The notes beneath the pieces are model-generated. The model was not told where the DNA came from, did no database searches, and was given only the letters and a program-made list of their open reading frames with translations. DNA of 52,278 nt, taken from assembly GCA_902806095.1 (NCBI GenBank), contig CADCVF010000010.1, forward strand, positions 1 to 52,278. Direction: 5' to 3'. Within the stretch, counting starts at the first letter, position 1. Each line of letters starts with the position of its first letter. Source of the stretch: an uncultured Rubrobacteraceae bacterium (GTDB taxonomy: Bacteria > Actinomycetota > Rubrobacteria > Rubrobacterales > Rubrobacteraceae). The translations under genes were made by a program, and so were the position numbers. Shown here piece by piece: positions 42,110 through 44,813 of the stretch.

Positions 42110-42816
42110 GTCGCAACGACCGTAACGTGCTCATCCTCGGGTTGCTGGGAATAGTTATTATCGTCGTCGGCTTCTACTTTCTCCTTCTGAGTCCGCTTCT
42201 TGGAAGGCTCAACGATCGGGCCGAGGAACGCAAGGACAAACAGGCCCAGCTCGAACAGCTGCAGCAGCAGGTGAACGAGCTCGAGGAAGTCAGGCGCAAT
42301 TCCCCGGAGATCGAACGCCAGCTCCTCGAACTCAGCAAGAGGGTCCCGACGCAGCCGCAGATTCCTACGTTCGTCGTCCAGGTCGAAGAGATCGCAGGCG
42401 CCTCCGGCGTGACCCAGCTCGTGGTCGAACCGGGAGATGCTGCCGCGCCGGCCGGTGGTGGCGACTACCAAACCATACCCGTTACAATGCAATTCAATGG
42501 GACCTACGATGAGATGCAGGACTTTCTGTTGAGGACGCGTAACCTCGCCAGGCTGGTGACGGTTACCGACGTTAGTTACTGTCGCGAGCCCGAACCCATA
42601 GATGACGAGCACTCGTGTCCCGTAACGCCGCCCGAGGAGCAACCGGAGGAGAGCACGACGGCGGACACATCCGTGGAGGCGCCCCTGTTGGTGGAGATAC
42701 AAGCTGATGTCTACTTCCAGCCTCAGGGCGTGCCTTCCGGGGCCGAGACTACTGCCCCGACCCCATCGGAGTCGACTACTCCGGCAGAGCCCGCCCAGGA
42801 ATCCACTGGTGGCTAG
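42106..42816 (+). CDS. pilO: Type IV pilus assembly protein PilO
   Basis: 236 residues. One membrane segment (about 8-30: VLILGLLGIVIIVVGFYFLLL), a coiled coil (ERKDKQAQLEQLQQQVNELEE) and a ferredoxin-like domain (VEEIAGASGVTQLVVEP, IPVTMQFNGTYDEMQDFLLRTRNLARLV) match PilO. The C-terminal 60 residues are Thr/Pro/Glu-rich and seem disordered. It partners PilN in the pilus alignment complex. Confidence 0.9.
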   Translation: MSRNDRNVLILGLLGIVIIVVGFYFLLLSPLLGRLNDRAEERKDKQAQLEQLQQQVNELEEVRRNSPEIERQLLELSKRVPTQPQIPTFVVQVEEIAGASGVTQLVVEPGDAAAPAGGGDYQTIPVTMQFNGTYDEMQDFLLRTRNLARLVTVTDVSYCREPEPIDDEHSCPVTPPEEQPEESTTADTSVEAPLLVEIQADVYFQPQGVPSGAETTAPTPSESTTPAEPAQESTGG

Positions 42817-43465
42817 CTTGCGGTCGGTCGGACGTCGCGCGGCCGATTTCGGAGGAGCAGTGGTCGATACGTTCCTGCGTGACAACAGGTTACTGCCGCC
42901 GATTCTGGCCTTGCTCGCATTGTTCGTCTTCGCCTGGATCCTGGCAGGCTTGTTCATCGGCGGCACCGATGACCAGAAGCCTGTCGCGCACAGGTCCGAG
43001 TTCGCCCAGGCTGACGGCGCCGCGAGTCCGGATCCCGCCGCCCCCGAGGTAGATAACCCCAACGTCGATTCCTACGCGGCCTACCGGAGTAAGGACCCGT
43101 TCAGACGGATCCTCGTCTTCTCTCGGACAACCCCTGAGGGGACGGCCCCGGTGCCCGCGGAAGAGACTACTACGGGCGGAGGGAGGACGAGGGACGGCGG
43201 TAATAGGCAGGCCGCCGATTCGGACAGAGACGGCCTGCCCGATCGCAAGGAGGCAATCTTCGGCCAAGAGCCGAGCATCCCCGACACGGACGGCGACGGT
43301 ATCCCTGACGGCCTCGACGACTCTGACGGCGACGGAATACCAGACGGGGTAGAGGGCGGCGGAAACGACAGGGCAGGTGGAAGCGGGGGAGGGCGCGGCG
43401 CAGGCGGCCAACCGGGACGGGGTGGCGGTCTGCTAGACAGCGGCGGAACACTCTCCCCGCCGTAG
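42809..43465 (+). CDS. PilP-like membrane protein with calcium-binding (thrombospondin type 3-like) repeats
   Basis: 218 residues from GTG 42809, inside the pilO end; TTG 42818 is the alternative. After a short cytoplasmic part there is one membrane segment (about 30-52: LLPPILALLALFVFAWILAGLFI). The sequence YRSKDPFRRILVF resembles the RDPF segment of PilP, and the position after pilO is that of pilP. The rest is unlike PilP: three calcium-loop repeats (DSDRDGLPD, DTDGDGIPD, DSDGDGIPD) and a Gly-rich tail. I infer a divergent or functional PilP analogue whose fold may depend on calcium. The PilP link rests on one motif and on context. Confidence 0.6.
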   Translation: MASLRSVGRRAADFGGAVVDTFLRDNRLLPPILALLALFVFAWILAGLFIGGTDDQKPVAHRSEFAQADGAASPDPAAPEVDNPNVDSYAAYRSKDPFRRILVFSRTTPEGTAPVPAEETTTGGGRTRDGGNRQAADSDRDGLPDRKEAIFGQEPSIPDTDGDGIPDGLDDSDGDGIPDGVEGGGNDRAGGSGGGRGAGGQPGRGGGLLDSGGTLSPP

Positions 43466-43473
43466 AGCACTTC

Positions 43474-43600
43474 AGCATTTCAGCTTGTCTTGGTCCACCC
43501 TCGATTCCCGTAACCAGGTATGTAGCGAAGGTGCAGCCTCCCGCAAACCGTGGCTACAAGCCACAGGCATCAAGCTTCGGCGAAAACAAGCTGAAATGCT
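43474..43600. other. 127-nt inverted-repeat element able to fold into a branched structure
   Basis: AGCATTTCAGCTTGT (43474-43488) and its exact reverse complement ACAAGCTGAAATGCT (43586-43600) bracket 97 nt. Inside, GTGGCT-ACA-AGCCAC (43550-43564) is a perfect hairpin; CGAAG (43526-43530) can pair with CTTCG (43575-43579) around it; CTTGGT (43489-43494) can pair with ACCAGG (43513-43518). A ten-base palindrome ATGCTAGCAT (43597-43606) overlaps the right end. It lies between the pilus operon and aroC, 49 nt before the aroC start. It could be a structured RNA leader or a miniature mobile element; no target-site duplication is evident. Confidence 0.65.
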
Positions 43601-43649
43601 AGCATATTAGCTACAGGAACTTGTCGATCTCGAAGGTTCGGAGGCGTTT

Positions 43650-44813
43650 GTGAGGTTCGGTTTTTCGACGGCGGGAGAGTCCCACGGCCCCGCCGAGGTC
43701 GCCCTGGTGCACGGAGTCCCTGCGGGTCTCGGACTCCTCGCCGGGGATGTGAACAGGGACCTCTCGCGCAGGCAGAAAGGCTACGGGCGGGGTGGGCGCC
43801 AGAAGATCGAGAGAGACGAGGTCGAGTTTCTCGGCGGTGTGCGCCACGGATATACCCTGGGCTCGCCCGTAGCCATGCTCATCCGCAACAGGGACTACGC
43901 CAACTGGGAGCATCGCATGACCCCAGACCCTGTCGAGGACCCACCGCAAAAGATCACACTCCCAAGGCCCGGTCACGCCGACCTCGCAGGGATGCAGAAG
44001 TACGACTTCGATGACCTCCGAAACGTCCTGGAACGCTCCAGTGCCCGCGAGACGACGGCCAGGGTCGCGGCAGGTGGAGTCGCAAGAAAGTTCCTGTCGG
44101 AGTTCGGGGTCGAGATAAGCAGTGCGGTCTACAGGATCGGCGACGCCGCCTATCCCAAGCAAAACGCCGCGTTCGACGCCGCCTTCTCAGACGAGTCCGA
44201 GGTACGCTGCCCCGACCCCGATGTCTCGGAGAGGATGAAGGCCGAGATCGATGCCGCCCGCTACGCCCGCGACGCCCTCGGGGGCGAGTTCGTCGTCGTC
44301 GCCAAGGGGTGCCCGCCAGGGCTCGGTTCCTACGTCGACTGGCGCGACAAACTCGACGCGAGGCTCGCCGCAGCCATGATGTCGATCAACGCGATCAAAG
44401 GCGTCGAATTCGGGATGGGCTTCGACCTCGCGGCCCGCAGATCCAGCGAGGTGCAAGACGAGATACTCTCGGAAGACGGACGCCTCGCCCGCGCCAGCAA
44501 TCGCCTCGGGGGACTCGAAGGCGGGATGACCAACGGGGAGCCGGTCGTCGTCTCAGCGGCCATGAAGCCGATCTCCACGATAGCGAAAGCCCTCCGTACG
44601 GTCGACCTCGCCACGGGAGAACCCACACGCGCCTTCAAGGAGCGGGCCGACTCCTGCGCGGTGCCTGCCGCGGCTGTGATAGGGGAGTCCATGGCAGCGA
44701 TCGTGCTCGCGGAAGCGTTCCTCGATAAATTCGGTATGGACAACTTGACCGATATTCGCGCCGCATACAATGCTTACACTGATCGCGTCGCAAGCACAGG
44801 GAAGAGAATCTGA
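43650..44813 (+). CDS. aroC: Chorismate synthase
   Basis: 387 residues, GTG start with GGAGG upstream. It converts EPSP to chorismate with reduced FMN. Signatures are FSTAGESHGPAEVA at the N-terminus, RQKGYGRGGRQKIERDEVEFLGG-type phosphate loop, RPGHADLAGMQKYDFDD, RSSARETTARVAAGGVARKFL and the C-terminal FKERADSCAVPAAAVIGE. It heads the run aroC-aroK-aroB-aroQ that supplies aromatic amino acid precursors. Confidence 0.97.
   Translation: MRFGFSTAGESHGPAEVALVHGVPAGLGLLAGDVNRDLSRRQKGYGRGGRQKIERDEVEFLGGVRHGYTLGSPVAMLIRNRDYANWEHRMTPDPVEDPPQKITLPRPGHADLAGMQKYDFDDLRNVLERSSARETTARVAAGGVARKFLSEFGVEISSAVYRIGDAAYPKQNAAFDAAFSDESEVRCPDPDVSERMKAEIDAARYARDALGGEFVVVAKGCPPGLGSYVDWRDKLDARLAAAMMSINAIKGVEFGMGFDLAARRSSEVQDEILSEDGRLARASNRLGGLEGGMTNGEPVVVSAAMKPISTIAKALRTVDLATGEPTRAFKERADSCAVPAAAVIGESMAAIVLAEAFLDKFGMDNLTDIRAAYNAYTDRVASTGKRI

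Follow-up and report, generated by a model that had tools for sequence, protein, structure and literature searches.

The intergenic region between the pilus genes and aroC

The window (the whole stretch of 52,278 nucleotides from an uncultured Rubrobacteraceae bacterium that was analysed) contains a type IV pilus operon and, downstream of it, an aroC-aroK-aroB-aroQ run. The first gene of this run encodes the chorismate synthase AroC (43650..44813, plus strand; PF01264, E 2e-116) and is followed by SKI, DHQ_synthase, and DHquinase_II domains, matching aroK-aroB-aroQ. On the other side, PilM_2, PilN, and PilO domains were found in the genes preceding a small gene (42707..43465, plus strand), which is the last of the pilM-pilN-pilO run. 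The C-terminus of its product (..SGGTLSPP*) is kept in relatives, and its true start is probably located downstream of 42707. The pilus gene and aroC are co-directional.

An element of ~139 bp without a transposase gene is found between these two genes (43463..43601 including both flanking TA dinucleotides, no strand assigned). It reads TA-GAGCAYTTCAGC on the left and GCTGAAATGC-TA on the right, and its boundaries were derived from other copies with known empty sites. The left flanking TA is formed by the first two bases of the TAG stop codon of the upstream gene. The copy begins with TAGAGC inside this stop codon and ends with ..GAAATGC-TA, with TA on both sides, and beyond TAGAGC its outer arms consist of octamer words and not of an intact TIR.

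Immediately 3' of the element lies CATATTAGC (43603-43611), which is what the window retains of GGTTTATATTAG, a sequence that 8 of 16 family relatives carry ~50-55 nt ahead of the start of aroC and that a few others have as a variant. CATATT (43603..43608, plus strand) is the remnant of the conserved promoter-like motif TATATTAGC upstream of aroC. TATATTAG was considered as a general promoter motif and rejected, being too rare in the genome sample. A consensus scan gave no intrinsic terminator or sigma-70 promoter, and there is no T-tract terminator at the locus. Judged from conservation, the element probably occupies the interval from the pilus gene's stop codon to a putative -10 box, and hence lies upstream of the aroC transcription start. 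The comparison with relatives, with the conserved -10-like motif 3' of the element, thus argues against the placement in the 5' leader of aroC that the initial annotation had inferred. The element is also not conserved at the orthologous site, as all 16 family relatives lack it upstream of aroC. Since the intergenic sequence at this place is unrelated in G002, the closest relative having the region, and the contig of G008 begins inside aroC, the window copy is left without a clean empty site.

Inverted repeat and predicted fold

The 15-bp inverted repeat on which the initial annotation was built is confirmed, its arms (43474-43488 and 43586-43600) being perfectly complementary; the chance expectation for a 15-bp inverted repeat within 130 nt is ~0.006 in the window. 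The 6-bp hairpin GTGGCT/AGCCAC (43550-43555 and 43559-43564) is likewise perfect, and the CGAAG/CTTCG pair is present at 43526-43530 and 43575-43579. The CTTGGT/ACCAGG pair (43489-43494 and 43513-43518) is complementary but requires one G-T wobble. No match to Rfam was obtained at the gathering score or at E 10, in agreement with the earlier statement that no known riboswitch or T-box is recognizable.

Folding of 43466-43649, which had been proposed for both strands, yielded z-scores of -4.0 (plus strand) and -4.5 (minus strand), and none of 200 dinucleotide-preserving shuffles was as stable on either strand. Good folding on both strands is expected of an imperfect palindrome, and a good z-score by itself does not point to an RNA gene. 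The minimum-energy RNA fold of the plus strand does not use all of the arms named in the initial annotation. The two-arm RNA fold proposed there found no support among the copies: 0 internal-arm pairs show double changes, which is no better than shuffles, and this fold is therefore private to the window copy.

Dispersed copies, TA target sites, and octamer arrays

The host genome (G000; 3.83 Mb in 85 contigs) contains 12 partial matches to the region. Allowing one mismatch, the arm GCATTTCAGCTTGT occurs 152 times in this genome and its reversed control 3 times; the triple-octamer pattern TCAGCNNNTCAGCNNNTCAGC has 198 matches (reversed control, 0). A pattern search of 60 relatives gave 51 matches in the host genome itself, 49 in G008, 27 in G006, and 10 each in G002 and G032, with few or none in the rest of the family and none in the other families searched; the related contigs named are from Rubrobacteraceae. 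A covariance model of the core (R1), searched against 41 genomes, gave 40 hits in the host genome, 24 in its closest relative (G008), 10 in G006, 3 in G014, and one each in three further genomes, and had no match in most other genera.

Intact copies are three-hairpin elements. They run from TA-RAGCRGTTTGCA through hairpin A (AGCGGTTTGCAGAGAGGC / GCCTCCTACAAACYGC), the linker GGCTACAGGCTTCRGGCATCAGG, a middle hairpin (TTTCAGC / GCTGAAA around GAAAACAA), the trinucleotide TGC, and hairpin B (TTGCAAAGGGG / CCCCTTTGCAA, spanning TTGCAAAGNGG..CCNCTTTGCAA in the complete layout) to CTTGCTC-TA. In an alignment of 10 copies (A1), from four rows of which octamer expansions of 8 or 16 bp had been excised beforehand, 83.7% of the cells are paired, compared with 35-43% in slid controls. 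Nine pairs are changed on both sides versus 4.1 +/- 1.5 in shuffles (0/500 reach 9), and the intact copies elsewhere thus carry compensatory changes in their three-hairpin structure. A second family of iterated words, consisting of CAGGNNN heptamers facing NNNCCTG with palindromes of its own, resembles the linker of the MITE core (L142:3511-3661, L113:2418-2538, L185:1425-1460).

In the window copy, the left arm (43465..43488, plus strand) is composed of the TCAGC-octamer words GAGCACT-TCAGCATT-TCAGCTTG-T, which are recovered by the triple-octamer pattern and include the left arm of the 15-bp repeat. A decayed hairpin A (43511..43556, plus strand; 5' strand ~43511-43531, 3' strand ~43538-43556) keeps 9 of 13 family pairs in alignment A1, and the adjoining linker (43557..43573, plus strand) matches the family's ACAGGCTTCRGGCATCAGG words by nhmmer and in the alignment of 10 copies. 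The middle hairpin TTCGGC / GCTGAA around GAAAACAA (43574..43597, plus strand) keeps 6 of 7 family pairs, one as G-T, and none of the family pairs of hairpin B is retained. The right arm ACAAGCTGAAATGCT (43586..43600, plus strand) is the most conserved stretch of the core family, AAGCTGAAATGC being near-invariant across the 10 aligned copies, and pairs with the left octamer arm. As the octamer words GCATTTCAGCTT and AAGCTGAAATGC of the core are reverse complements of each other, the two ends pair as a 15-bp inverted repeat.

The core family is inserted into TA with duplication of the TA, as seen at the empty sites of other copies. G008 is ~91% identical to the host genome in nucleotides and has an empty site, CCTGTTACC-TA-AGTCCCTGG (..GTTACC-TA-AGTCCC..), where the host genome is filled, CCTGTTGCC-TA-AAGCGG...CTTGCTC-TA-AGTCCCTGG (left flank ..GTTGCC). 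In a second pair of these genomes, the empty site CTC-TA-AGAGGCG faces the filled site CTC-TA-AGGTC...CTTC-TA-GGAGGCG; a third pair is similar, with the left TA mutated to GA. The reverse case, with G008 filled and the host genome empty, was found at GGCC-TA-CAATC. At some sites the duplication may comprise CTA, as C precedes TA on both sides. Duplication of a TA target is a hallmark of Tc1/mariner-IS630 transposition (ISY100, PMC2170065).

Ends matching those of the MITE (TARAGC..TTGCA) are present on two IS630 elements in relatives, although the TIR match between MITE and IS extends over only ~14 bp. One is a 1013-bp element in G032 (L296:180-1192; ends TAGAGCGGTTTTCA / TAGAGCAGCTTGCA) and the other a 1003-bp element in G002 (L291:1031-2033; ends TAGAGCACCTTGCA / TAAAGCGGCTGTCA). 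Each has two overlapping frames that encode HTH_Tnp_IS630 and DDE_3. As a control, 844 kb of the host genome contained 16 TARAGC pairs with equal spacing, and none of these was as similar. A cognate transposase with these ends was not found in the host genome among 11 PF13358 hits, some of which are located at contig ends or have no recognizable TIR; those IS630 copies of the host genome that have recognizable ends were rejected as parents, since these ends differ (e.g., ATACCG..). The cognate enzyme of the host genome may either have been lost or be unrecognized. A 2.9-kb stretch that adjoins one MITE copy and is missing in G008 was rejected as an autonomous element because it contains ordinary genes.

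Several further sequences were noted alongside these elements. An IS630 copy of G008 (L298, G008:C313, 571-1952) contains an internal stop; its ends may be TAGAGCATTGCGG / TAGAGCATCGCGG, and it may represent a third parent type nearer to the TAGAGCAT array ends. In G002, a TA-flanked simple palindrome (L286:530-554; TAGAACGGTTTTGCGGAAG..CTTCCGCAAAACC..CTTTA) occupies exactly the site of a composite array in the host genome (L199:18235-18379) and is a possible minimal form of the element. An insertion of ~1.06 kb inside a protein gene of G008 (L166:1991-3062), missing in the host genome (L221:17824-17836), has an intein-like start (..CFDEETEILTDEGW..) and an intein-like end (..FVRRNGKPHFSGNC..).

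The octamer words of the left arm belong to TCAGC-octamer arrays, which were analysed in an 844-kb sample of stretches of the host genome. This sample contains 86 array loci (~100 per Mb), 85 of which are intergenic even though 83% of the sample is coding, with genes called by a simple codon-usage script and not by full annotation. TCAGC precedes GCTGA in each of the 41 arrays that contain both orientations; the search pattern preset some of the octamer words, which biases word frequencies and leaves polarity unbiased. Convergent gene pairs are enriched around the arrays (29 of 81 array loci versus 93 of 479 intergenic regions; Fisher p between 0.00016 and 0.002, according to which background is taken). 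Neighboring arrays have no partner gene in common, and ordinary unrelated genes are found there. At one array locus (L200:3014-3442, G000:C42), an SRP RNA-like sequence (GGATAAGATGGGCTGGCACC) adjoins the arrays.

The array spacers are either exactly 3 nt long (246 cases) or consist of hairpin modules of 17-22 or 24-28 nt. In the largest length classes of these modules, the stems vary among copies and are complementary within each copy (within versus between copies 0.917 versus 0.674 and 0.702 versus 0.620, each 0/2000 permutations); in length classes with few members this signal is weaker or null. At most of the orthologous sites compared, the modules and arrays of the host genome and G008 are unlike. 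Palindromes of TCAGCNNN octamers were also observed in several Anaerolineae MAGs (loci L104-L181, Chloroflexota), and similar words in an Okeania contig (L131); L113 is a further locus of this set. The Anaerolineae arrays use identical octamer words with the same polarity in 15 of 15 mixed arrays, and modules of 17-28 nt are rare or absent in the Anaerolineae and Okeania arrays. No report of Rubrobacter or Chloroflexi repeats of this kind was found in open-access papers.

Interpretation and comparison with known repeat systems

In our judgment, the element is quite probably a degenerate copy of a non-autonomous, TA-targeting MITE of the Tc1/mariner-IS630 class, which has merged with a TCAGC-octamer palindromic array and is inserted between the type IV pilus operon and aroC. 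The initial annotation had offered a miniature inverted-repeat element, a cis-regulatory RNA, and a small RNA. The first of these is supported by the dispersed copies, the absence at the orthologous site, the TA duplications, and the matching IS630 ends, whereas the cis-regulatory RNA is not; the element may also be a small RNA.

As the empty sites show, the core family moves or has moved as a TA-targeting MITE whose insertion duplicates the TA; an IS630-family DDE transposase recognizing the ends would mobilize it in trans. Before an insertion of this kind, the aroC site would have read about ..CCG-TA-GCATATTAGC... The window copy would then have retained portions of hairpin A and the middle hairpin but not hairpin B, with octamer words at its left, and the facing octamer arms would create the 15-bp repeat. 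The octamer arrays may grow by slippage or template switching on hairpins, or through a separate enzyme. An effect on aroC, if any, might be exerted through the bases placed upstream of the -10 box or, alternatively, through a hairpin formed in transcripts that read through from the pilus operon.

The relation between arrays and MITEs allows for another reading, in which the octamer arrays are a separate repeat class (units of TCAGCNNN, hairpin modules, a fixed polarity from TCAGC to GCTGA) that spreads and grows by its own process, e.g., slippage or template switching at hairpins or another enzyme, and the window element is mainly an array with MITE sequence caught inside. The exact 3-nt spacers, the uniform polarity and intergenic location, the stems that differ across copies yet remain complementary inside each copy, the Anaerolineae arrays with the same words and polarity but without hairpin modules, and the arrays that differ between the host genome and G008 at most shared sites all speak for it. 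Nevertheless, arrays and MITEs largely occur in the same genomes (with the exception of G002, which has few arrays and no model hit), arrays often share the TAGAGC end with MITEs, and the core itself contains octamer words, which precludes a clean separation; we consider this reading possible but unlikely. It is somewhat more doubtful still that the octamer palindromes are a distinct, unrecognized class of structured intergenic repeats in Rubrobacteraceae, Anaerolineae, and at least one cyanobacterium, which would have a strict 8-bp grammar, a fixed polarity, and their own spreading mechanism, in which hairpin modules with interchangeable stems also take part, and would not simply be MITE debris.

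The enrichment of array loci between convergent genes would be compatible with a selected intrinsic or bidirectional terminator between operons. This is very unlikely, as a T-tract terminator is lacking, the gene pair is co-directional, the site is not conserved, and convergent enrichment has also been reported for the small mobile repeats RUP and BOX (PMC3049150). A new, riboswitch-like cis-regulatory RNA in the aroC leader could account for the good predicted fold and the location ahead of the aro genes, but is highly improbable in view of the 16 family relatives lacking it upstream of aroC, the many dispersed copies, the internal arms without compensatory change, the position upstream of the conserved -10-like motif, and the absence of an Rfam match. 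We give equally little credence to a REP/BIME-type repeat moved by a REP-associated tyrosine (Y1) transposase: the repeats are dispersed, intergenic, and palindromic, and Y1 transposases occur only in the host genome and G008 among the family members searched, but these Y1 genes adjoin TnpB in ordinary IS200/IS605 elements that the repeats do not flank, arrays are present in G006 and G002 without Y1, and core insertion duplicates TA.

With the degenerate MITE copy as the preferred reading, a mobile repeat replaces the candidate regulatory RNA at the aroC locus, and the value of the window copy is mainly that of a glimpse of a large, fast-changing, modular repeat family. This repeat system is dense (~100 loci per Mb), turns over between species at ~91% nucleotide identity, and combines MITEs that duplicate TA, IS630 elements as candidate parents, and an octamer grammar in two phyla. 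Two questions thereby become testable, namely what moves the repeats and how short iterated words have spread among distant bacteria.

Among known systems, ISY100 and the IS630 family of the Tc1/mariner superfamily (PMC2170065) also duplicate a TA target, as seen here at the MITE empty sites, and the candidate parent elements likewise encode a DDE transposase; in contrast, the window element lacks a transposase gene and any movement must occur in trans. The Repeat Unit of Pneumococcus (RUP) is 107 bp long with a TIR similar to IS630-Spn1 (PMC3049150). Like the family described here, RUP is a short, non-coding, dispersed repeat with target-site duplication and IS630-like ends that is over-represented between convergent genes and nested with other small repeats (PMC3049150). 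The window family differs in its high-GC actinobacterial host, its three-hairpin body, the TCAGC-octamer arrays and hairpin modules it carries or borders, and ends for which matching IS630 copies were found in relatives and not in the same genome, and we claim no sequence relation to RUP. The BOX elements of streptococci, built as boxA-boxB(n)-boxC (PMC3049150), share the modular body, variable unit number, strong secondary structure, and intergenic location, but instead of boxB the units in this family are words of 8 bp and hairpins of 17-28 nt, always with TCAGC..GCTGA polarity. Finally, the TAACTGA heptamer repeats of Beggiatoaceae, Cyanobacteria, and Bacteroidetes, for which horizontal transfer without a known mechanism has been proposed (PMC4679880), resemble the octamer arrays as short words iterated intergenically with a patchy distribution in distant phyla. 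They are, however, direct repeats that in the best-studied genome are mostly found just upstream of start codons (PMC4679880), whereas the octamer arrays are palindromic, contain hairpin modules, and are biased toward convergent genes.
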